Source: Irineochytrium annulatum (Eukaryota > Chytridiomycota > Chytridiomycetes > Chytridiales > Chytridiaceae). Taken from it: a stretch of DNA of 13,461 nt. Numbering within the stretch: the first letter of the stretch is position 1; every line of letters begins with the position of its first letter. The DNA lies in NCBI GenBank assembly GCA_027600665.1, contig JADGJL010000813.1, positions 1 to 13,461 of the forward strand, written 5' to 3'. A program made the position numbers and the translations under genes. A model generated the notes under the pieces. That model made no database searches and had not been told where the DNA came from. It saw only the letters and a list, made by a program, of their open reading frames with translations. This document shows, one piece after another, positions 1 to 13,461 of this stretch.

Positions 1-235
1 TTTTTGTTGTTTGTGCCTTTGCCTTCCTTTGTCGCGATCTCGTCCGCGTCATAGGTGTTGGCTCTCCCAGGGTGTCTCTGTATGAACATCATCAAGAGTC
101 TAACATTATGAGCTCAAGTCAAAAGCGGAAAAGAGCATCTGTATTATTGGGCCTTTAAAGACCTTCGTTTAAAAAGGGTTTGAAACGCAGGAACATCGAC
201 GGAAAACATGAAATGTTCCAACAGGATACGCAGAA
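1..235. other. Left flank downstream of the SAM membrane-protein gene
   Basis: This is the 3' flank of the minus-strand gene that stops at 236. I see no convincing complete gene. On the minus strand an ATG at 52-50 opens a frame to the window edge that is strongly basic (begins MTRTRSRQRKAKAQ). It could be the start of the next minus-strand gene, but 17 codons are too few to judge. No AATAAA lies on the minus strand here; the nearest match is AATAAT at about 143-148. Confidence 0.3.
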
Positions 236-1803
236 TTACGTTTGATGCCTTCCGGTTTGATATGGAGGAGGTGCCACATCGATGGTTTCTGTTCGGCTAC
301 TAACATCCAGTCCTGCGCTCGAGGATCCATTGCCGCCGGCAGCTCGCGTCAACCTCGTTATCAGCAAGCGCAGAACCTCCCTCGCGCTGGCACTTGTCAT
401 CCCAAGCCCCTGGCTCATCTCCTCGTCAGACAAACTCAAAAGCCTCGCGCCGTCCACGTTGTTCGCTATATCAACCATTATCAGGAAGAAGTTTACCGAA
501 GGAAGAACATGCAAAAATTGGAAGAGCTAAACATACCAGTAAAGGCCGCGATTCTTTCCTGGCTGAAATCGTTCCGCCGCAGCCACCCGGAGACGTCCGC
601 CACGCTCCACGACCCCACGTCACGCTCCTCGTCGTCCGTCAGCGCCGACGCGGCGGCCGGCGACCCGCCATCGGCTGCCGCGCCTACCAAACTCGGCCCA
701 CCGACCGTTCCAGAGAATGAAAACGCCGCGCTTGATGGCGCATCGGACGTCGACCCGGACACCGCCTGGGGTTCCTCACCCGACCTGACGTCCGCCGCCG
801 TTGACGCCGCGTGCAGTTGCTTCCGAAGGCTCGCGTCCAACTCAGCTATCGCCGGTGTAGGCGGGAGCGGGCGTTCGGCGACGAGGCCCAAGAAGAGTTT
901 GGAATCGGTCGAAGCGTCGAAGGTTGACGATAAGGCAGAGGGCTGTAGCATGGTGAGCTCGTGGTCGGAGAGCGGGGTGGCGGACTCGACGGTCGACTCC
1001 GCGACTATCGAAGCCTTAACGGCGCGACGCTTTCTGTGGATTAACACGGCGGTGATGGCCGTGATGGCGATCACGGCCCCGAGGGCCGCCACCGATGCGG
1101 AGACAATCGCGGCTATTGGCGGTGTTGAAGTGGGCGGCGGAGGTTCGTAAATGAGCGTGGTGGGTATGCGGGTGTAGGGTGCGCCAGAGCCGCCGAGGGC
1201 CTTTGGTAATACAAAACCGGGGCAGGTGCTCTGAAGATAGGGGACAATTGTGTTGCTGGGGCCAAAGGGAGCGCCAGGGCCCGTCTCCCACGGAAGGATG
1301 GCGGTGCAGCTCGTCATACAGTCGACGAGGTCGATGTAGTTTGTGCATTTGCAGTCGACATTGTAGTCTGAACACAGGTCCATGCTTTTGCTGACTATCT
1401 CGATGCAGGCAATGCAGGGGCTCAGGTCAGCCGGGTCAGCCGTCGCGGTCGCCGGAATCGAAGTGCCGACGGACGTCGCCGGGAGGGGCAGAGTGGCGTT
1501 CAGGGACGGAAGCCAAGTGGCGGAAGAGAACAGAACGTTCTGCGACTCATCGATGCAGGAGGAGTGATCGGCGTATCTGGTGCAGTCCTCGCAGTTACCG
1601 GTCCGTGCTTTTGCGTAGGTCGTCCCGTTGATGCAGTTGCATTCACCCCTAGGTGTAAAACCGGCCAGGATAGCATCAGGGATCTCCATGCACCGATCCA
1701 CGGCCGAGTTCGTCGCCCGGCCCGGGCATGCGACGAAGGATGTCGACGGGAGACCGAAGCACGGCGGAATGCCTGTGAGAGCGAACGGGATTGCTGCCAA
1801 CAT
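236..1803 (-). CDS. Single-pass membrane protein: Cys-rich ectodomain, SH3 ligand, SAM domain, PPxY tail
   Basis: Exons on the minus strand are 1803-537 and 465-236, giving 498 aa. The 71-nt intron (536-466, GTATGT...ATAG, phase 1) falls inside the SAM domain, and splicing restores a continuous SAM sequence. Order: short hydrophobic N-terminus, likely a signal peptide (1-18); extracellular part with about 15 cysteines and N-glycosylation sequons NGT and NAT; Pro-rich stalk (YEPPPPTSTPP); membrane helix about 230-255 followed by stop-transfer HRKRR; cytoplasmic tail with RPLPPTP (311-317, an exact RxxPxxP class I SH3 ligand); low-complexity Ser/Ala stretch; SAM domain about 397-462 (opens WSVADVSGWL); PPPY at 488-491, a WW-domain ligand. 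SAM domains usually oligomerise or bind other SAM domains, so a receptor or adaptor role is likely but inferred. The ectodomain family is not recognised. The start is the least certain part: the frame is open upstream to a TGA at about 1857-1855 but has no earlier in-frame ATG. Confidence 0.78.
466..536 (-). other. Phase-1 intron splitting the SAM domain
   Basis: Donor is G|GTATGT at 536 and acceptor is GATATAG|CG at 466. Removing 71 nt joins ...RIAAFT to ANNVDGARLL..., which gives an uninterrupted SAM fold. Reading through instead gives a stop soon after the domain's first half. Confidence 0.85.
853..873 (-). other. Class I SH3-binding motif RPLPPTP in the membrane protein tail
   Basis: The codons read R-P-L-P-P-T-P, matching [RK]xxPxxP exactly. 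It lies about 55 residues after the membrane helix, so it would face the cytoplasm. The divergent neighbour encodes nine SH3 domains. Binding is inference. Confidence 0.7.
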
Positions 1804-2966
1804 TGACACGACGCCCAGGCTGTCGTGGAACCGGGCTTCATCAGCCTGGGTGTTTCAGAGCGACCATATCCAGTTCGAACTCTATCAGACGTCACATACT
1901 TACACCACGTCCGAATCTCAGGAGTCGCGATATAATGTGTTAGTCCTAATCGTGAGCGTTTATTTTAAAATGCCACGGAATATGAAATTCATTCACGACG
2001 GGAAGTACAATCAGCTCGGCTGACGTTTGTTGGTATTTATAAATCAGGTCCTGCCAGATTTTTCTCGTGGGGCAGTCAGAAACTGAAGTCCGCGTATTTC
2101 TTGTGTCGCCTTTATTGTTTGATGTCTATTTATTCATAATATATCATCACATCATCATCTATTTGCACCTTGTCCCCTATTTTAAATCATTAAGCCCTAC
2201 CCGAACAACCTGCGCCTATGCGCGCTTTTGTCCACAACGCGCGTGCGCGCTCCACCCCCTATCGCTAGTCAATTATGTGGGTTAATGTCACATCGGCCTC
2301 CAAGTTGGTCTCTACCGTCTCTCTGACGAGGCCCTATCCAACACAATATATTAGCATGCGCCGGCTGGTCCCGTCTTCAACAGAACGGGAGAAGAACACA
2401 CATAACTTGCACCAAAACGGACCTTGCTCTCCCGATCCAGCATCCTCTTGGGCTTTCCGGCGTTCCCGAGCAATATGTCGATCTGTGAGGCAGTAGTACT
2501 TGGGTCGATCCAAACCCCGACGGCGCAAGTGTCGCCAGGCCGCCCTCTTGCTCGTTGACTCTTACATGTAGAGAGCATGGTAGAGGGAGAGTTGAGGAGG
2601 GAGTAAAGAGGCAGGAGGGGCGCGAAGGTCGAGAGAGGGCTAGCCGATTGTGGAGCTGGATGTCCATCAGTGCGCGGTGGTGAAGAGGGAGAGAGCTCGA
2701 CATTCGACGCGTGAAGCGGTGGCATGAACCACCATGCCCGCCATGCATGCAGAAAGACCAGAAAGACAAGTTCGAGATTGTCATCGAAATTGGGCGTTAA
2801 CACCAGACAGTCCAGAGACGGCTTGAGCGTGACGCTGCTGTCGCATTTGCTCATCGCCCAAACCACCTTGCGCTGCTCCCCGCTCCTGCACCTGCACCAT
2901 CCCGTGTTGGGCTTCCGTCATTCCTCTTCCTCTGCTGGACATCCGTTCGATTGATCAACGAACAGT
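1804..2966. promoter_or_regulatory. Divergent intergenic region between the membrane-protein gene and the SH3-septin gene
   Basis: This 1163-bp gap separates two start codons facing away from each other, so it should hold both promoters. On the minus strand a strong donor GTAAGT at 1903-1898 pairs with a CCCAG acceptor ending at 1846, a plausible 58-nt 5'-UTR intron. After that acceptor an ATG at 1842-1840 is out of frame with the main start and would be an overlapping upstream ORF. The interval 2100-2200 is AT-rich, 2217-2250 holds alternating purine-pyrimidine CG-rich runs, and 2570-2640 is purine-rich on the plus strand. The 60 bases before ATG 2967 are pyrimidine-rich, as expected of a 5' leader. 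The longer open frames here show no domain and look like chance. Confidence 0.55.
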
Positions 2967-5900
2967 ATGGACGGTGAGCTACGGAGTTCCCACCCTTTCC
3001 CTGGATTCTGCGTTCTGACCATCCTTCTTCTGTTTGTCCTTTACAAGTAGCCGCCGATCGGCTTGTTGGAAGTGAGTGTCCTTTATTCTTTGTTCTGTGT
3101 TGGGATGGGCCGGATGCGAGGGGATTAGATCTCCTGGTTTGATGTGGGACCAGTACCGAAGGAGGAAGAAGGAGTGCCCTTGTCGTAGCACGGACGTATT
3201 GATCCTTACTGTTCTTTGCATTTAGTCGCGGATTACACGCCCAGCCATGCCGATGAAATTAAGCTCCAGGTTGGTGACTCTCAGTCCTTGGAGAGCCCAC
3301 TTAGTAAGCTAATCGCGCTTTCACTTCACCAGACGGGCAACGTCGTCTCCATTCTCTTCTCCTACGAAGACGGCTGGGTCCTCGGTCGCAACGAGACCAC
3401 GGGCGCCGTCGGCCTTCTTCCCCGCAACTTCCTCGGCAAAGAAGTCCCCGCCGCCAAGGTCGTCCGCACCCCGACCAACCGCGCATCCTCTCTCGTGAAG
3501 GGGCGCGGCAACACCCTCCGCGGCCAGCAGGGCGGAAGCGCTGCGCCCAACGCTTCTAATGCGGCAGCAAAGCCCCCGGCCGCAGCGGCAACGCCAGCCT
3601 CTAACGCCTCCTCATCCCCCGCCACACCCATCCAGACCACCCTGCCCTCCATGGCACCCAATCCCTCCCAGGCCTCCGCTTCCTCCGCGACCCCCGCCAC
3701 CTCCTCCGCCGCCGGCGCTCCACCGGGCGCTGCCGAGCGCCTCGTGGCCGTGTGCGAGTACGAGCCCCAGCAGCAGGACGAGATCCGTCTCGGGCTCGGC
3801 CACATGGTTTCGATCCTGTTTACGTACGAGGACGGGTGGGTGCTCGGGAGGAACGAGAGCACGGGGACCGTCGGGTTGGTCCCGAGGAACTTTTTGGAGG
3901 CGGAAGCGAACGCGACGAGCAAGCAGCCGCAGGTCGGGAGGATGGCGTCGAAACGGACGAGCTCGTTGGCTGTCAAGAGGGGCGCCACGGTGCAGAAGGC
4001 TTCGTCGGGGCAGGGGTCAACGGGATTGTCGCCGACCTCGCAGCCGTTGGCGGCGGAGACCGTAGCGCCCGCTGTCGCGGCGGCTGCTTCGGCGGCCGTG
4101 GCAGATGCTGGGAAGACCGTCGAGAAGCTCGTTGGCAGTAAGTTATTCTTAACTTTCGCGTTGACGTGTTGGAGGGGGCCAGTGATCTGATACGGTCCCT
4201 TTCCTTCTCCTCGCTCTGCCAGTTTGCGACTACGTCCCGCAGAACGCGGATGAGATTGCCTTGAAGGTCTCGAACGTCGTCGTCATCCTCTTCACGTACG
4301 AGGACGGCTGGATCTTGGGCAGGAACGAGGCCACCGGAGGTATTCTCTCATTTGTTTTCGTTTGCGCATGTTCTAATTATTTGCGAATGTAGCCGTCGGC
4401 CTTCTCCCCCGCAACTTTCTCGACAAGATTACCGCGTCCAATGCTAAGCCCGTTGGCGGGAAGGTCGCCGGCACGAGGAACAACTCGCTCAACGCCAAGA
4501 ACAGCAACTTTGGGAACATTATCACGGGGCAGCCCGCGGCCGCACCTGCGCAGGCCACCACGGCCAATGGGATGCTGGCCCCGCCAGGTGCTCAGGCGGA
4601 CACTGATGGCGGGGCTGAGAAGCTTGTCGGAAGTACGTAACCCTCTGATCTAATCTTTAATATCAACAATTAACACTGTTTTTTTTCCAACTCAGTCTGC
4701 GACTACGCGCCCCAGAACCCGGACGAGATTGCCCTTAAGGTCGGCGAGCCCGTGGCCGTGCTGAACCGGTACGAGGACGGGTGGGTCATGGCCCGGAATC
4801 AGAAGACGAACGCCATCGGGCTGCTCCCCGGTAACTTTTTGGGCAAGGACACGGCGCCACCTGCGGTCGGGAGGCTCGCTTCGGGCAGGACGAGCTCGAT
4901 TAACGCCAAGCCGTTGCCCGCTGGGCCGGAGGAGCTTGTTGGGAGTGAGTTTTTGTGCGCCTTTTTTTTTTTTCTTATTGGCGGACGGTTTTTGTTGATA
5001 TTGATGGGTGACTATAGTTTGCGAGTACAAGGCCGCGAACCCTGATGAGATCAACCTGAAGGTCGGCCAGAAGGTCACAGTGCTGAAGGTTTTCGCGGAC
5101 GGATGGGGTTTGACGCGGAACGAGGCCACAGGAGGTATACGATCTGTCTGAAGCTGCGTTCGTCTTTCGTCTCGTCACTAAACACGCCCTATTTTCCTTT
5201 TCAAAACTTAGCCGTCGGCCTCCTCCCGCTTAACTTTCTCGATAAGTCTTCCGTCGCACCCGTCGTCGGCAGGCTCGCCTCCGTTAGGAACGAGTCCCTC
5301 GCGAACAAGCCCGCCGGCCCCGTCGGTGCCGCTGCCTCGTCCACGTCGTCATCGACCCCGGCGGCCACACCCGCGCCGGTGGCGGCGGGGGCGCCCGCCG
5401 ATGTTGGCAAGGAGATGCTTGTCGGAAGTGAGTATTCGCTTTTAATCGATTATAACCCCCAACAATTCTTACGTGTTCCTTTTCTTCAGTCTGCGAATAC
5501 AAGGCCACGGCCCCGGACGAGATCACGCTCCTCGTCGGCCACCGCGTCACGGTCTTGAACTCCTACGAGGACGGATGGGTCATGGCGAGGAACGAGGCCA
5601 CTGGAGGTGACTAACCACGCTTCACTTTAATCCCCGAAATCTTGTCCTTAGCAAATTGATTACATAGCCATCGGCCTCCTCCCGCGCAACTTTCTTGAGA
5701 AGGAGGCTGCCGCCAAGGGGCCCGTCGTTGGCAGGCTCGCTTCGGGTCGCACGGCATCGCTTCAGGCCAAGATGCCCACCGGTGCGAACGCGGCGGCTGC
5801 TGCACCCGCCGCTGCCGCAGCCCCCGTTGCAGTCGCCTCCGCGTCGTCCGCTCCGTCTGCTGCTTCAAAGGCTCTTGTTGGGAGTGAGTGTTTGTTTTAA

Positions 5901-8271
5901 CATATCTGACGTTGTTGTACCGCTTTTGCGCTCTCGACGGTTTTCTAACCTGTCCTCCTTTCCCAAAGTTTGCGATTACGCGCCTCAGGCTCCCGACGAA
6001 ATCGCGCTGAAGGTCGGTCAGCGCGTCACGATCCTGAACTCGTATGAGGACGGCTGGGTCATGGCTCGCAACGAGGCTACGGGCGGTACATATATTTACG
6101 TCGCTTTTCCTTGTGGATGTGCTATCTGACCCGCGCATTTGTTTTAGGCGTCGGTCTCCTCCCCCGCAACTTCCTCGACGTTGAGAGCAGCGCGCCCGTC
6201 GTCGGCCGCCTCGCCTCAGGCAGGACTTCATCGCTTGCCGCCAAGATGCCCGGTGGGTCCACTGCGCCAAACCAGCTCGCTCCGGCCACTGCCGCAGCTT
6301 CCGCCGCTCCCGACCCGAAGAAGCTTGTCGGAAGTAAGTCTTCGTGCATAAATCGCCCCTTTTTTTTTTTGGATATCGGTCATTAAATGTTAATTCACTT
6401 CTTTTGTATTGCAGTCTCCGACTACGTGCCGCAGAACAACGACGAGATCGGCCTCAAAGTTGGTCAGAAGGTGACCGTGATTAACGCGTTCGAGGACGGC
6501 TGGATTCTTGCCCGGAACGAGAGCACGAGCGGTTGGTTTTCCTCCCCACATTTGGCGTATTGTTGCATCTTTTTGAAAACCTTACTCCTCGGGTGTAGCT
6601 GTCGGTCTTCTCCCGCGTAACTTCTTGGACTTCGATTCGGCGTCCCAGGTTAAGGCCGTTGCCGGACGAGTCCCGTCGAAGAGGGGCTTGGCTTCTGCCA
6701 ACGCTCTCCCCGGCGCTTCGTCCGCCGCATCTTCGGCTCCCGTGAAGCCCGTCGAGGCCGCGGTGGCTGGGTCGGGCTGCGGGTCTGGGTCTGCCTCGAA
6801 TGCGGACGTTCTTATCGCTCGTAAGCATTTAGTACCCTTTCGCAAAGGCTGAAAAACTAATTCTTATCTGTGAAGTCTGCGACTTCACGCCCACGGCACC
6901 CGATGAGATCGCCCTGAAGTTTGGGCAGAAGATTACGATCTTCACCAGCTACGAGGACGGCTGGGTTTTGGGCAGGAACGAGGCGACCGGAGGTTAGTCG
7001 ACTGGCTTCATTGAAGGAACCCGTAGTTCTAACTTCATCTTTCATCTGCAGCTGTTGGTCTTATGCCCCGCAACTTCATGGACATCAACAGGAACGCCAC
7101 TGTTTCGCCGGTCGTCGGCCGCGTCGCATCGACCCGTAACGCCTCGAAGGCCGCGAAATCCGGCAGCTACGGCCACATGATCGTCGAGACAGTGCCACCT
7201 GTGACAAAGATGCCGTCCGGCGTGACGACGGCGCCTTCCGTGTCTATTCAGCCCATCGTTACGCCTACGCCCGCCGCCCCAGTCTCCGCAAACTCGACCA
7301 GCTTGCGCCATGCGGCCGCCGTGCCCCCGCCGCGAAAAGAGCCTCTTTTGTTCGAGGAATCCATCAACGGCCCGGGTTTCACGATCTCGACCCAGCGCAA
7401 AATGACCGAGGTCGCCGAGCGCCGCTCAAACCGCTCCCGCGTCGCAGCCAACATGGGCACGCTCAAGGTCGCCATCGTCGGCGACATGTCGATCGGCAAG
7501 ACGGGCCTCATCAAGGCTTTCCTTTCCATTCCGGAGATCGTCATGTCGGACCCTTTACCGCCGGCGTCGGCCTCTGGATCAATTCGCGAGATCCGCGCCT
7601 CCACTATCCCCGCCGCCGAGCTCGTCCCGGGCGAGGAGAGGCTCAATCTTACGTTTGTGGACACGCCCGGCTACGGCTCCTCCCTCGATGCGCTATCGAT
7701 CGTCCGGCCGGTCGTTGACTACTGCCTGCAGCAGTACGCCAAGTCCGAGCGCTGCTTCGTCCGAGGACCCCAAGGCCCGTCGCGCGCCCAGGTGGTTCGG
7801 TTCCTGAACGCCGGGTCCGGGTCACACCCTCACGTGGACGTGGTGCTTTACGGCCTCCTCCACCGCCTCACGCCCATTGACGTTGAGTTCATCCGGAGGC
7901 TCGAGCGCGTCGCCATCGTCGTGCCCGTCATCCTTAAGTCCGACAGCCTGCTCGCGAGCGAGGTCTTCGCGCTCAAGCGTGACGTGCTCGAGAGGCTAGG
8001 GGAGGTCGGCGTTCGGGTCTATGGGTTTGGGCTGGAGCACGAGGAGTGCCTGGCGTTGGCGCGCGCCGGCGTGTGGGGCGCCGTGCCGTTTGCGCTATCG
8101 AGCCCTGCGGAGCTCCCGAAAGGCGGCAAGCCGTCCGCGAGGGGTGCAGACGGGGACGAGGGCGCGAGGAACGAATTTGAAGAGTTGAAGAAGGCGCTGC
8201 TTTACCAGCACATCGGGGAGATCCGGAATTTGGCTGCGGAGAAGTTTGCGGATTGGTGGGAGAGCAACTGA
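2967..8271 (+). CDS. Nine-SH3 scaffold protein with C-terminal septin-like GTPase domain
   Basis: The 17 exons are 2967-2973, 3051-3071, 3226-3269, 3333-4137, 4223-4339, 4393-4632, 4696-4944, 5018-5134, 5212-5427, 5490-5606, 5668-5883, 5969-6085, 6148-6333, 6415-6531, 6599-6820, 6876-6992 and 7052-8271. They total 4128 nt, or 1375 aa, with frame preserved throughout. The start (MDAADRLVG) was chosen because splicing a 7-nt exon and a 21-nt microexon gives the same (R/K)LVG-I lead-in found before the other SH3 domains. SH3 domains lie at about 9-60, 161-213, 291-343, 410-463, 493-546, 604-657, 715-768, 816-869 and 929-982. The common pattern is DEI.LKVG..V.IL..YEDGWVLGRNE.TGAVGLLPRNFL. Ala/Pro/Ser linkers separate them. 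Residues about 1105-1375 form a GTPase most like septins: P-loop GDMSIGKT (1113-1120), DTPG (1173-1176), LKSD (1264-1267), and a C-terminal helix like the end of septin G domains. There is no signal peptide or membrane helix, so a cytoplasmic or cortical scaffold is inferred. Confidence 0.88.
3226..7083 (+). repeat. Nine tandem SH3 domain units (exon-module repeat)
   Basis: Domain spans, introns included: 3226-3440, 3741-3899, 4223-4424, 4696-4843, 5018-5243, 5490-5699, 5969-6179, 6415-6630 and 6876-7083. All keep the acidic DE of the RT loop, the ligand-binding Trp (DGW) and the Pro-x-Asn-Phe site (PRNF in place of the usual P.NY), so they should be able to bind PxxP ligands. Domain 5 is the most divergent, with FADGWGLTR in place of YEDGWVLGR and PLNF in place of PRNF. 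Domains 3 and 5-9 are each split by an intron immediately before the final AVGLLPRNF strand. Domains 2 and 4 are uninterrupted, and domain 1 has an intron at a different place. Confidence 0.92.
3270..3332 (+). other. 63-nt stop-free intron inside SH3 domain 1
   Basis: Donor is CAG|GTTGGT and acceptor is CACCAG|ACG, phase 0. Removing it yields DEIKLQTGNVVSILF, which aligns without gaps to domain 2 (DEIRLGLGHMVSILF) and domain 3 (DEIALKVSNVVVILF). The intron is 21 codons with no stop, so retention would insert 21 residues without a frameshift. The alternative is that it is real coding sequence inserted in the RT/n-Src region. The alignment favours splicing. Confidence 0.7.
3480..7140 (+). repeat. 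Recurrent post-SH3 linker motif, (VVGR)(L/V)AS.R..S(L/I)
   Basis: After most SH3 domains the linker repeats a basic Ser-rich motif. The core after domains 1-9 reads NRASSL, KRTSSL, TRNNSL, GRTSSI, VRNESL, GRTASL, GRTSSL, KRGLAS and TRNASK. Seven of nine therefore fit R-x-x-S-[LI], and several are preceded by VVGRLAS or a close variant. R-x-x-S-hydrophobic is a typical basophilic-kinase site (PKA/CaMK/AMPK type). Phosphorylation itself is inference. Confidence 0.65.
7453..8268 (+). other. Septin-like GTPase domain (G1, G3 and G4 motifs)
   Basis: Encoded entirely in the last exon. G1/P-loop is 7480-7503 (GDMSIGKT), G3 is 7660-7671 (DTPG) and G4 is 7933-7944 (LKSD, where septins have AKAD). The segment leading to G4, LTPIDVEFIRRL then VVPVILKSDSL, follows the septin pattern of L.P.D.EF.K.L then IPVIAKADTL. 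The C-terminal NEFEELKKALLYQHIGEIRN resembles the septin DF..LR..LI.THM.DL segment. A basic stretch (RRSNRSR) lies just before the domain, where septins carry a polybasic membrane-binding region. The septin unique element (GR.YPWG region) is not recognisable. Confidence 0.75.
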
Positions 8272-8555
8272 GTGTTTTTCGATTTCTCTTGTTATTGAAA
8301 CTTCTCTTTTTGTTACCTTTCGTTGCTTCATGCGGATTTCGTTTTGATGGTGCTCTCTTTCAGTCTACTTCTTTGCTCCAATCTTCTTTGTTGGGTCCGG
8401 TTATTCAATCTAAAACCTCGGTCTGAATCATAGATAGCTATGAGTATTTTGCTTCTTCCTTCCCTATGTTCAATTTTTGCTGGTCTTCGGGACTTCGCCT
8501 CGTTTTCACACAGCATTGGTGGCTACGTTTCTTCAAATGGCGATTGTATCGCTTG

Positions 8556-8561
8556 AATAAA
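8556..8561 (+). terminator. Poly(A) signal AATAAA for the SH3-septin gene
   Basis: A canonical AATAAA 285 nt after the stop, and the only exact match on the plus strand that I found between 8272 and 8600. Confidence 0.5.
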
Positions 8562-8674
8562 AGGAAGTAGAAACGTATGAAATGCTGGAAGCATATGAAT
8601 ATGAGTCATCAGTGGACAATCGCAGTGGCCTGCCCGCTGTATCATATGTCATAACATACCAAGAAGTCTAAAGC

Positions 8675-8680
8675 TTTATT
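8675..8680 (-). terminator. Poly(A) signal AATAAA for FRS1
   Basis: TTTATT on the plus strand, hence AATAAA on the minus strand, about 130 nt after the FRS1 stop codon. Confidence 0.55.
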
Positions 8681-8808
8681 CTTCCACCGCAAAATCCAAA
8701 CAATTGACGACTAAAGATGAAACGTCAAGATTTGTGTTTGCATGCGCAGACGGTGAGAAACATGGTCACGCATAGAAATACAGGCCCCCCTCCCCAACAG
8801 AGATGCGT

Positions 8809-11274
8809 TTAAACGAACGGCTCCAAGTTCAACTCGAGAGCCGAAGACGGGTAATTGAACTCGAACTTCTGGATAACCTCCGGGTGCAGGATGCCGAAGC
8901 TCCCAATCTTCTCCTTGTTGTAAAAGACGTCCGCGCGCCGGCCCTCAAAGAACGTGGCATCTGTGGATGGAAGAAACGTTCACATATAAGTTGAACGCTA
9001 ACGCTGCCAGCAACCCACTTTTCGATTCCTGAATGTAGTATCCGCCCGCCTCCCCAGCGTCGACAGAGGGGATGTTGAGCATGGCCATAACGCGGTCTAG
9101 GACTCCGTGGACAAGCTAATTTCGGTTACCAAATACAATACATCGAAACACGGACCTCAAACCCGGAAGTCTTCAAACTCGCAAAAACGACGCAAAGGTT
9201 CCTTTGGTTCCTTGTCTGCCTCTCCTTGGTGCTGTCCTTGAAAACGACGTCCGACACTTCAAAGATCTTAAGCGGGAGCGGGTGATCCTTGTTCGACGCG
9301 ATCGTCTTCAGCAAGCCGGGAATCAAGCTCGTCCGGACAACCTTCAAGGACACTTACTAAACTGTAGCTAAAAGCAAGAACGGTGCAATTTACCTGATAT
9401 TCTACCGTCTTTGGGTTCGCAAGCTTGACCGCGCTCCCATCATCGGTCTTCTTTAAGAACGCAAAGTTCTCATCATGCGAGCACTATGACCCTAAATTAG
9501 CCTTCCACACATTCCCCCTTCAACACATCAATCCTCACCAGAATCAAGGGCAGAACCTCCGTATACCCTGCAAACGCCAACTCCCTCCTAATCTGATCCG
9601 ACATCTTGTTCAGCGGCAACGGTGCGGCAGGCGTGTTGGCCTTGGGCGTCGTCTCGGTGATGTTGTTGTACCCGAACGCGATCGCGACGTCCTCTGCGAT
9701 GTCGCACGCGTGAAGGATGTCGGACCGCGTCGGCGGAACCTGAACGACGATCTCGTCGGACGGGCCCTTGGACTTTGTGGCGGTGAGGGACATTTTGGAC
9801 AGAAGCTTGATGATCTCGTCGGCGTTCAGGGTGGTGCCGACGCGGGTGTTGATGTAGTGGGCCGAGGTTGTGAACTTACGCGGGGTCAGGTCCGGGTATA
9901 GAACAGATTTGCCCTCCGCGTCTACGACTTCCACGGGTTCGACGCTACCGGTTTGTACGTTAACCCCTCGTCCAAACAAAGAAAAAAAAAAAAAAAGGAA
10001 AAAGGGGCGGGGGGGTGGAGACTGGGCCTGGGACGTACGAGAAAGGGTCCGCGACGTATTGCGAGAACATGGACACGACCGTGTTGAGCACGGTCTTCGC
10101 CTTTGTCAGATCCGTAGCCGTGCACTCGATGAAGACGTTCTTCGTCGTTAGCTTGATCTTTGAGTGATCGCTGTTGATAATGGGCGGCAGCGAGAGGACG
10201 CGCCGCTTTGAATCGTAAATGACGGGATACCGTGGGGCGTCACGGATGATGTGGAGATACTTGCTCAGCTTGCGGTCGCTCTTTCAAAGGAAAAGAAAGG
10301 AAAAAACCGATGCTTAACAACTATACAGGCGGAGGTGGAAAAAGCAAAAACCTCGTAGAACGTCATTAACTCTTTGGCGTCCATTGACTTTGTCTGATTC
10401 AGCGGCACGAAATTGATCTCGGACGGCGGTAGAGCTTCGTAGGTGAACGGACCGACGACGGTATCGAGGTCGTGAGTTCCAATGGCGACAAGGGTCCGCT
10501 TTCTGATTGCCAGTCTAAGTATTCCGTAGGTCATTAACGGGCAAGGGAAAACTTAACCTGCAGATGTTATTGTGCAGCTTGTCCTGCAGCTCGATGAATG
10601 TGTTGTAATTCTCCTCCGTGAATTTGATGTTCCGGAGGACGGCCGCAACCACGAAGGGACGGATGGCGGCGGTCTTTGTATTTTTTTTTTTTTTGGAAAT
10701 GTTAAGGAACAAAACAGGCCAACCACAAAAACGCCAAACCTCAGGCTTCACAATGAGCTTCTGCGCTTGGCCCTTGGCGGGCTTGACGACCCGGTAATTC
10801 GGGGGAGCGCCCTCCCCGCGGAAAGTGAGCAACGCGCGGGTGATCCCTTCGGGGCAGAGCAGATCGTATCTTATCGTACCCTCTTAGTCTCACCACGGAA
10901 GAAGAATCAACGCGTCATTACCTGTTTGCCGGGATGTCGATGCTGTACAACCGCCGTTTGGACGAATCCTTCGCGCGATCGGCGCCGACCTCCTTCGCCT
11001 TCTTCTCATACTCGGAGGTCTTCATGCTCACTTAGCCAGCAAGAACATGCAGCCTAACAATCACCTCCTCCTCCAACTCAATCCCAAAGTCGAAGCATAG
11101 CTCCTCGAATTCTTCCTTTGCTGAACGGGCATGATCAGTCAACGGTTGCAGTACCGAACAGATCCTTACTGAATGATCGGTTCAGCGCCTGGAAGAGGTT
11201 CTCCTTGTCGACGTCGACGGTAGGCTGGTGACGGGCATCAGATGGTGCCAGGAGCACGGCGAGTGACTCACCAT
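8809..11274 (-). CDS. FRS1: Phenylalanyl-tRNA synthetase beta subunit, cytosolic
   Basis: The beta subunit pairs with the alpha subunit in the (alpha-beta)2 enzyme that charges tRNA-Phe in the cytosol. Exons on the minus strand: 11274-11272, 11224-11170, 11120-11065, 11019-10922, 10869-10740, 10673-10558, 10502-10352, 10280-10039, 9944-9539, 9483-9394, 9341-9156, 9115-9019 and 8960-8809. They sum to 1782 nt, or 593 aa, the normal eukaryotic length. The N-terminus ([15 protein letters not shown]), [26 protein letters not shown] and [14 protein letters not shown] are family hallmarks. A B3/B4-type region follows at about 115-280. The B5 domain is at about 300-375 ([17 protein letters not shown]). 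The C-terminal core ends at [10 protein letters not shown]. Splice sites were chosen by frame and family alignment. For example, the acceptor at 10503 gives [12 protein letters not shown] rather than the longer reading from an upstream AG. The first coding exon holds only the ATG. The 11274 start lies head-to-head with RPL26. Confidence 0.97.
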
Positions 11275-11704
11275 TTCGCGAAAAAGCCTTTGCCTAGTTG
11301 TGTGCGTCTAATTACCGATCTGTGCAGTATTCATATTCCCACGGTCTTGGCGATGAATATGAAATGATGTTGCTTCTCCACAAGATGGACTAACTACTTT
11401 TCATTTGTTGGCAAAAGCTTGCAGTGTGTGGGAAGAATGCCCAGAGTGGGCAGCAGATAGACACGAAAAGAAACACAGGCCGATTGGGTCAGCAACATTA
11501 ACTGTATGGATGGCGAATGACCAACGAGCATGATCTTCGGATTCATCAATGGCCCTTCCACGCCCTAGCTAGAATACCATGTTGCTGGAAGTCCACAGAC
11601 AGCTTCACTTCTTTGGGCTGTTAATCTGTGGCGCAGTATCAAAGTTGGCGGACAGGTTTGTCAAGTGCATTCGAGGTTTTCTGCAGGAACTCCGAGCCAT
11701 CACC
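11275..11704. promoter_or_regulatory. Shared divergent promoter region of FRS1 and RPL26
   Basis: This 430-bp region separates two translation-machinery genes transcribed away from each other. I could not identify a specific factor-binding motif or TATA box. On the plus side an ATG at 11579 stays in frame with the RPL26 start and no stop intervenes. The TTTCTGCAG ending at 11684 could be the acceptor of a 5'-UTR intron. The TSS positions cannot be set from sequence. Confidence 0.5.
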
Positions 11705-12387
11705 ATGAAGTTCAGCAATGGTGAGCGTCGCGACGGGCTTGAAAGAGAGTCTCTGAGATGGTTCCTGGCCGCGCGATTCCGTCAAGTCCGTGAACGACTA
11801 AGCTGACATTTGGTTTTCTCTCCCAGACGTGTCCTCCAGCCGCCGGAAGTCAAGGAAGGCCCACCTGTCGGCCCCTTCCAACGTACGGCGAAAGATCATG
11901 TCCGCATCGCTGTCGAAGGAGCTGCGGGAGAAGTACCATGTCTGTATTTTGATTGATGAACGCGCTGGCACCACAGCGCGGCGCGGTGGAAAACGATAGT
12001 TGACGTGATTTGGCCACGATGACAGGTCCGGTCCCTACCCGTGCGCAAGGATGACGAGGTCACGATCATGAGGGGCACGCAGAAGAACCGGACGGGGAAG
12101 GTCGTCCAGGTCTACCGCCGGAAGTGGGTTATCCACATTGAGAAGATTGTGAAGGACAAGGTCAACGGTGGGTACATTCGCTCTATTAACCAGAGCTCGT
12201 TTTTAAATCTGGTGGTGGATATGGGTTGTTGTCTGACCATTTTTCGGTTATTTCGTTCTGTACAGGCGCGTCGGTCCCTCTCGGCATCGACCCCTCCAAG
12301 GTCCAGATCACGTCATTGAAGATGGACAAGGACCGTTTGGCGTTGTTGGAGCGCAAGGACCGCTCGAAGCTGCCCGCTCGCGCGTGA
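11705..12387 (+). CDS. RPL26: 60S ribosomal protein L26 (uL24)
   Basis: A structural protein of the large ribosomal subunit; uL24 binds 25S/28S rRNA early in assembly. Exons are 11705-11720, 11827-11939, 12026-12167 and 12266-12387, totalling 393 nt, or 130 aa (yeast about 127, human about 145). The spliced product begins [20 protein letters not shown]. It keeps [17 protein letters not shown], then the KOW-motif region [12 protein letters not shown]...[12 protein letters not shown], and [18 protein letters not shown]. The three introns are 106, 86 and 98 nt; the first comes after only 16 coding nt, as is common in ribosomal protein genes. The start at 11705 is chosen because family members begin MKF/MAK-like just before this conserved segment. 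An in-frame ATG 42 codons upstream is considered non-coding. Confidence 0.97.
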
Positions 12388-12927
12388 AGTGGTGGCCGTT
12401 TGGAGGTGGGATATGTGTGAGGTTGACACGGTAGAGGGGGGTAGTGTGACGCGGCGGCTAGGGCGTTAGCCTTTTCGAGTAGTTTTCGCGGGCCGGCCAG
12501 CGTAGCGTTGATGGGGTTGCCATGAGGATGTTACTGCCTTAAATAAATAACATAGCAAAATCGTATTCGATGCTAATAGCAAACATATGTTGTCAGCAAC
12601 CCGAACCATAAAGGATGGAATGGTGCTTCTGTAAACCATAAATGATGTCAGTATACCGAAGTCATACCTCGCGGTCTTATTTCCACTTAGATGCATACAA
12701 TGCAATCCCAAAATCACTCAAGCAAACCCGGTACAAAGCACACCCGTCACTTCATGTCCATGCTTCCACAAGGCACCGCCCGCCGTACCCTTGCATCGAC
12801 CCACACAGCCCGACATCAATCTATGGTGTCCTGCATTTCACTGCAGTCAGGTTCGGGCATGCTGACGGATTCTCTATCATCGCGCAAAACTCCAAGTCAT
12901 AGGGAGCAATCCCGACGTTCAACAGAT
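12388..12927. other. RPL26 3' flank, no gene recognised
   Basis: It holds the RPL26 3' UTR and a candidate poly(A) signal. Several short open frames occur on both strands, but none shows a recognisable domain or a consistent spliced structure. Confidence 0.4.
12542..12547 (+). terminator. Poly(A) signal AATAAA for RPL26
   Basis: AATAAA, overlapping a second AAATAA, lies about 155 nt after the RPL26 stop codon. Confidence 0.55.
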
Positions 12928-13399
12928 TCATTGCTTTAAACATGACCAACAAACTTCATCCATATCGAGAGTTGCGTTGCACAGTTCGAGGTGCTCGAGG
13001 CGGTACAGATAGAAGACCACGGCTATGCTCTCGGCGTTGTCGCGAAGATTCTTCAGCTTGGCAGCATCCCCATGAAGTTGTGCTCTAGGGATTGCCAAAT
13101 TAACTTCGCGTCCAGGTCAGATCCCGTTCCTTCAGCTTGACCAGATCCGAGGACCCTTGCACGAATCTAATCCCGTCCCCAACGGAGCCATAATCGACGT
13201 CAAGCTGGTGAAGTTATGGAATTCCATTGACAACTTTCGCAGTGTAACTTTCGTCGTGAGCTTTATCTTTCGCAGCTAGGTCGCCTTTTTTGTAAGCAGC
13301 CAGAGATGCGATAACTCGAGCAGGCACTTGATAGTGTATGCGAAGGCGGTGAGGGTGGGCGGGTATGAGGCGGCATAAGGTCAAGGGCTGCAGCGACAA
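12928..13399 (-). other. Possible partial or decayed minus-strand coding sequence, family unknown
   Basis: Three minus-strand open segments lie head to tail in different frames. 13399-13214 includes DLAAKDKAHDESYTAKVV. 13204-13100 follows a TTCACCAG acceptor-like site and includes GSSDLVKLKERDL. 13116-12928 includes GDAAKLKNLRDNAESIAVV and ends at a TGA. The last two look protein-like (charged, helix-forming) but overlap by 17 nt in different frames with no plausible intron between them. This fits a frameshifted gene remnant, a sequencing indel or chance. I do not recognise a family and infer no function. Confidence 0.25.
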
Positions 13400-13461
13400 T
13401 TTCGTGATGATAAAATATATATAAGGAATGATAATAATAAAAACACCAGTCCAGAATTAAA

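Follow-up and report, generated by a model that had tools for sequence, protein, structure and literature searches.

A Predicted Gene of the Chytrid Irineochytrium annulatum Combines Nine SH3 Domains with a Septin-Like GTPase Domain

Introduction

According to passages of published septin surveys, the arginine finger is regarded as an ancestral trait that most opisthokont septins have lost, the AspE septins (group 5) stay outside the core heteropolymers, and the tryptophan of the septin-unique element (SUE) is kept, together with a neighbouring arginine and histidine, across all septin groups, group 5 included. In green-algal septins the finger and the threonine are present together or lost together, as stated in parts of PMC11238149. 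The term SH3 occurs nowhere in the main text of the septin surveys consulted, those on group 5 and the algal and ciliate groups included. The subject of this work is a single predicted gene of the chytrid Irineochytrium annulatum which encodes nine SH3 domains followed by a septin-like GTPase (G) domain. It lies at 2967–8271 on the forward strand of contig JADGJL010000813.1 (assembly GCA_027600665.1), whose positions 1 to 13,461, the whole stretch analysed, are referred to as the window.

Results

Gene Model

Removal of 16 GT-AG introns from 2967–8271 (forward strand, as for all features of this gene) joined the open frames into a single predicted frame of 1375 codons with its stop codon at 8271. 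The 17 exons are located at 2967–2973, 3051–3071, 3226–3269, 3333–4137, 4223–4339, 4393–4632, 4696–4944, 5018–5134, 5212–5427, 5490–5606, 5668–5883, 5969–6085, 6148–6333, 6415–6531, 6599–6820, 6876–6992 and 7052–8271. Pfam profiles applied to the spliced protein returned nine SH3 stretches (SH3_9, 296.1 bits; SH3_1, 270.9 bits) along with a single Septin domain (PF00735). The earlier note on this DNA had described 17 exons forming one 1375-codon frame with nine SH3 domains, and had regarded the whole as one gene; the splicing and this profile check confirmed the former at the sequence level, and the latter was borne out by the open frame 7033–8271. This frame holds the last exon and spans the end of the ninth SH3 and the complete G domain, which is the strongest argument for one gene, and the reading as two genes was rejected on this ground. 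The least certain parts of the model are exon 1 (7 nucleotides) and exon 2 (21 nucleotides), the second of which is backed by homology, since the residues LVGI precede the same phase-1 intron in repeats 3–8 and LIAL does so in repeat 9.

SH3 Array

The nine SH3 domains correspond to residues 9–58 (3068–3434), 163–212 (3747–3896), 292–341 (4134–4421), 411–460 (4629–4841), 494–543 (4941–5240), 605–654 (5424–5696), 716–765 (5880–6176), 817–866 (6330–6627) and 930–979 (6817–7080), the last ending in the exon of the septin-type domain. Introns 4–16, all of phase 1, interrupt the SH3 units at one of two places, residue 2 or residue 41; both are present in repeats 3 and 5–9, the first alone in repeats 1 and 4, and neither in repeat 2, which is intronless. 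Since phase-1 introns recur at these two places, the array was apparently built from a symmetric two-exon cassette, and it probably arose by repeated duplication of such a cassette in an ancestor with a single SH3. The order of the duplications is beyond the resolution of the SH3 tree, which comprises 50 columns only.

Protein identity among the nine domains was 52–80% and DNA identity among their coding stretches 60–76%, the longest exact word common to two units being 18 nucleotides. The likeness of introns at equivalent places was within expectation (highest z 2.5, 36 pairs). The divergence of the units and their unrelated introns indicate that the array is old, and its interpretation as an assembly artefact was rejected. 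Nonsynonymous divergence (dN) was 0.14–0.45 versus a synonymous divergence (dS) of 0.68–4.29 in 35 of the 36 pairs (one dS was undefined), which points to purifying selection on the units, with dS values near saturation. The key tryptophan, the proline of the PxxP groove and the DE of the RT loop, all with roles in ligand binding, are kept in all nine domains, and the ALYDY tyrosine, which has such a role as well, is conserved in eight and replaced by F in one. The best PDB alignment of the seventh SH3 was to a Src SH3 (35.5 bits).

The SH3 units are separated by long, low-complexity linkers rich in proline and alanine. The motif R-x-[SNTAE]-[SA]-[LMI], a pattern set after the linkers had been seen, occurs within 60 residues after seven of the nine SH3s (shuffled mean 0.24, highest 3 in 2000 shuffles); among the other family members, with six near-duplicate proteins left out, 21 of 32 linkers contain it (shuffled mean 1.0, highest 6). 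This RxSSL-type motif resembles a basophilic kinase site, and kinase control of the array through such phosphosite-like motifs is plausible.

Septin-Type GTPase Domain

The G domain, delimited by profile, fold and alignment, comprises residues 1102–1374 (7447–8265). The Pfam Septin profile matched residues 1106–1366 with 79.3 bits, or 85.8 bits when the G domain alone was submitted (cut-off 26.2), and the gene scored 83.5 bits in a scan of its own genome. Septins came first by a wide margin in profile, sequence and fold searches, and the predicted structure and the fold search gave the septin G-domain fold, in agreement with the GTPase class named in the earlier note. The motifs cited there were also found, namely the P-loop GDMSIGKT (G1, residues 1113–1120, 7480–7503), DTPG (G3, residues 1173–1176, 7660–7671) and LKSD (G4, residues 1264–1267, 7933–7944). 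Of the two septin-like segments that had been proposed, the one before G4, the Sep3 region, proved septin-like, whereas the C-terminal one did not stand: no SUE precedes the last helix, where it would be expected. The alignment showed no WG of the SUE in the window protein, and the structure models of this protein and of a database relative from the same species (P0001, below) contained no three-stranded β-meander, for which reasons the domain is named septin-like and not a canonical septin.

By alignment, the position of the catalytic switch-I threonine is occupied by I1147 (7582–7584). Alignment together with passages of the septin literature placed H1240-R1241 (7861–7866) at the trans-loop-1 histidine and the arginine-finger position; an arginine in Sep3 beside the invariant histidine is the mark of septin groups 6–8. 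The protein differs from the core septins (groups 1–4) in its position in the tree (outside them, 100/100), in having R1241 and not a small residue, and in an Asp at the column of SEPT2-H158. A basic, α0-like helix is predicted before the G domain (residues 1077–1096, 7372–7431) and is a candidate membrane contact.

Related Proteins

A search with the G domain of a same-genome paralogue, C544, gave 55 database proteins, near-identical and same-species entries included. An SH3 was found in 35 of them by a profile of our own, built from the window protein and the two same-genome paralogues, and in 30 by precomputed Pfam matches, which missed the SH3 of P0022; the weak matches to our profile were P0026 (19.6 bits), P0008 (26.2) and P0031 (27.1). 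Among these 35 relatives, 34 have one SH3 and P0017 has two, the first cut at the N-terminus. The SH3-septin combination is thus a chytrid family and is not unique to the window gene, the nine SH3s being the exception. The absence of a described family, suggested earlier, does not extend to the combination itself; as to publication it stands, no description of SH3-septin proteins having been found in the literature searched by title and start of abstract (subscription papers and most preprints lie outside this scope). In databases the architecture is already visible under the names SH3 domain-containing protein and Septin-domain-containing protein. Under the provisional name chytrid SH3-septins we group proteins with an N-terminal SH3, a SUE-less septin-type G domain and often an RxSSL-type motif, among them the window protein.

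The search for the same architecture, which the earlier note had proposed, thus showed the combination to be common, nearly always with one SH3, and the nine-SH3 array only here. No second nine-SH3 protein was obtained with residues 400–1375 as query, for which the 7992 candidates sharing most words were scored, so that others may exist; this query matched only P0013 and P0056, an SH3 protein without septin domain. The G-region query gave no match among 7100 candidates of 756–2406 residues, a result limited by the word filter (relatives of 783–1052 residues exist) and no proof of absence. P0013, a database protein from Cladochytrium tenue, combines a palmitoyl-protein thioesterase with an SH3-septin and is probably a merged gene model.

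The Septin scan of the genome gave 20 exon matches on nine contigs, representing the window, C544, C184 and six others. C544 (L010) and C184 (L011) are SH3 plus septin-type genes with one SH3 each; they extend at the C-terminus by 148 and 165 residues, respectively, and carry an intron, lacking in the window gene, that separates the K and T of the P-loop. The former matches P0001 (HK101_008600 of I. annulatum, 100% over the G region), and the latter agrees with P0022 (HK101_003280 of the same species) in length and profile scores. Our own splice of C544 gave 667 residues and 86.1 bits, compared with 661 residues (six fewer inside the SH3) and 93.0 bits for P0001; it is probably wrong at one acceptor, and the idea of an intron place shared by C544 with the window SH3s was therefore dropped.

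In the alignment, the arginine-finger position is R in 34 of 35 family rows and in one of ten canonical septins. The switch-I threonine is missing in 33 of 35 family rows (canonical, 1/10) and the WG of the SUE in each of the 33 rows extending that far (canonical, 0/10). The column of SEPT2-H158, the G-interface histidine, has D in 33 of 35 family rows and His in all ten canonical ones. The P-loop Lys is kept in 35/35 and the G4 Asp in 33/35 family rows, and the stretch before the G domain is net positive in 32/35, as it is in five canonical septins.

The G-domain tree comprised 57 of 64 rows (P0001, P0012, P0022, P0049–P0051 and sepC435 were left out) and was built without named AspE, algal septins, ciliate septins, TOC or AIG1. 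In it, 46 rows, the SH3-bearing ones and ten without SH3, were separated from 11 canonical rows (100/100) by a long branch, drawn with 1.48 changes per column to either side of the root. The window protein and P0017 were sisters (100/99) within a six-row clade (97/95), and 18 inner branches were unresolved. Of the remaining septins in this genome, five grouped with the canonical ones; the sixth, C435, was not in the tree. A single clade of the 35 SH3-bearing rows was not rejected (approximately unbiased test, p-AU 0.41) in a 53-row tree from which four further rows were omitted, among them the SH3-bearing, long-branched P0041.

Nine relatives without SH3 (P0037–P0040 and P0042–P0046, from Calcarisporiella, Geranomyces, Oculimacula, Saitoella, Parasitella and Actinomortierella, non-chytrid fungi included) have C-termini with hydrophobic stretches (best means over 19 residues, 1.28–2.51) that could be membrane anchors; P0042 additionally carries DUF6780. 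One canonical septin of the I. annulatum genome (L015, C259) reads GHRTSL, with an Arg after the trans-loop His and two extra residues.

Neighbouring Genes

On the reverse strand, a frame of 453 residues at 496–1854 had no Pfam match and includes a hydrophobic stretch besides a part rich in cysteine; its end and the next frame (236–526, reverse) resemble, by eye, a SAM domain interrupted by an intron. A phenylalanyl-tRNA synthetase beta subunit gene extends, by eye, over about 8830–10880 (reverse), its B5 domain (69.2 bits) lying in the frame 9500–10105. The frame 12023–12319 (forward) encodes a KOW motif protein (33.1 bits), likely ribosomal protein uL24/RPL26.

Discussion

The reading that we tentatively prefer, with somewhat less than even confidence, is that of a GTP-binding, membrane-docked, dimeric SH3 scaffold and not of an ordinary septin filament subunit. 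It is based on features of the sequence, namely the fusion, the intact P-loop and G4, R1241, I1147, the lack of the SUE and the ligand-site residues kept in nine SH3s, and on the predicted splicing, septin fold and basic helix; the GTP-bound state, the dimer, the docking and the partners would be steps beyond these. The predicted helix (residues 1077–1096) would dock the protein on the membrane, the G domain would stay GTP-bound, a dimer would form through the arginine-finger face in place of septin filaments, and the SH3 array would cluster many proline-rich partners. Nucleotide binding is apparently maintained, since the P-loop Lys and the G4 Asp are kept throughout nearly all of the family. 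As to the septin-type cortical assembly or GTP switch to which the earlier note had thought many partners might be tethered, a multivalent SH3 scaffold is likely, whereas a canonical cortical filament looks unlikely, because the SUE and the G-interface His column are gone and an arginine-finger residue absent in groups 1–4 is present.

Several observations weigh against this scaffold. A finger without the threonine is an odd state, in which hydrolysis may be absent or altered (cf. passages of PMC11238149). Loss of the SUE would remove part of the canonical G interface and the Asp at the SEPT2-H158 column lies in the same interface, both of which count against the dimer step. A basic stretch ahead of the G domain is common in septins and not special to chytrid SH3-septins, which lowers our confidence. 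As a nine-SH3 relative was not found elsewhere, the array may owe its length to an expansion in this species that carries no special function, and the post hoc choice of the linker pattern means that the shuffled counts rule out composition but give no unbiased rate.

Among the other explanations, it is unlikely that the G domain inserts in or caps core septin filaments with the SH3s arrayed along the cortex: septin fold and Sep3 region are retained, the α0-like helix is predicted, and the five placed septins of the genome are canonical (the sixth, C435, is not placed), but the WG of the SUE and the G-interface His, each present in all ten canonical rows, are lost as described, and passages of the surveys have the SUE tryptophan and its neighbours conserved in every septin group, even group 5. 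We consider it distinctly improbable that the GTPase domain is a mere anchor or relic of a multivalent SH3 hub, possibly bound to itself through its Pro/Ala-rich linkers. The nine intact SH3 surfaces, the long low-complexity linkers and the absent catalytic threonine would suit such a hub; the conserved P-loop Lys and G4 Asp suggest, on the contrary, that nucleotide binding is maintained. Little credence is likewise given to a fungal paraseptin fused to SH3s, which would stand near septins as an arginine-finger GTPase, like TOC and AIG1/GIMAP. The long branch to the canonical septins, the finger residue and the absent SUE speak for it, while the searches place septins first by a wide margin, Sep3 is septin-like, and the tree that shows the branch was built without algal and ciliate septins, TOC and AIG1.

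A gene-model artefact, either two merged genes or one SH3 expanded by the assembly, is very improbable indeed. The model was predicted from DNA alone and begins with two microexons, and the searches returned no database protein of this length for the I. annulatum genome; on the other side stand the single open exon shared by the ninth SH3 and the G domain, the unrelated introns and the divergence of the units in DNA, the SH3-septin combination in many other species, and the two SH3s of the Zopfochytrium sister P0017.

Beyond the preferred scaffold, a wider and rather doubtful proposal is that chytrid SH3-septins represent a lineage of fungal septins, so far undescribed, which kept the ancestral finger, dropped the threonine and the SUE, and left filaments to become nucleotide-gated, SH3-armed dimers; in Irineochytrium the array would have grown to nine, and one dimer would offer eighteen SH3 sites and could gather actin or polarity proteins into condensates at the membrane. 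If true, these proteins would exemplify how a septin can abandon filaments and take on another task. The function of finger-type septins outside filaments is testable in Spizellomyces punctatus, a transformable chytrid according to passages of the literature, with the member SPPG_00158, and the nine-SH3 member, an extreme multivalent scaffold, would offer a natural system for testing the role of valency in clustering at membranes.

Comparison with Known Systems

Multi-SH3 adaptors such as intersectin, CIN85 and Tuba resemble the window protein in having several SH3s per chain and multivalent binding, but have fewer than nine SH3s and are not known to carry a septin-like GTPase domain. The core septins of groups 1–4 (Cdc3/10/11/12, SEPT2/6/7/9) share its fold, P-loop, G3, G4 and Sep3 core; they differ from the window family in that they possess the SUE, have as a rule a small residue at the arginine position, and form filaments. 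According to passages of the surveys, the arginine finger of the chytrid SH3-septins is also found in AspE (group 5) and in most septins of the algal and ciliate groups 6–8, whereas group 5 keeps the SUE tryptophan that the chytrid proteins have lost, and the green-algal finger septins retain the switch-I threonine that most chytrid SH3-septins are without.

The single-SH3 chytrid septin-domain proteins, known from database entries (SPPG_00158 of S. punctatus, HK101_008600 of I. annulatum), have in common with the window protein the SH3, a linker, the basic stretch, the septin-type G domain, the arginine-finger residue and the lack of a SUE; they have one SH3 and often a C-terminal extension, in contrast to nine SH3s and no extension. 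Closest is P0017, a Septin-domain protein of Zopfochytrium polystomum, a genus that, like Irineochytrium, belongs to the Chytridiaceae. It is 63% identical to the window protein over 264 columns and shares with it at least two SH3s (a lower bound, the database model beginning inside an SH3), the same linker motif and the absence of a C-terminal extension.
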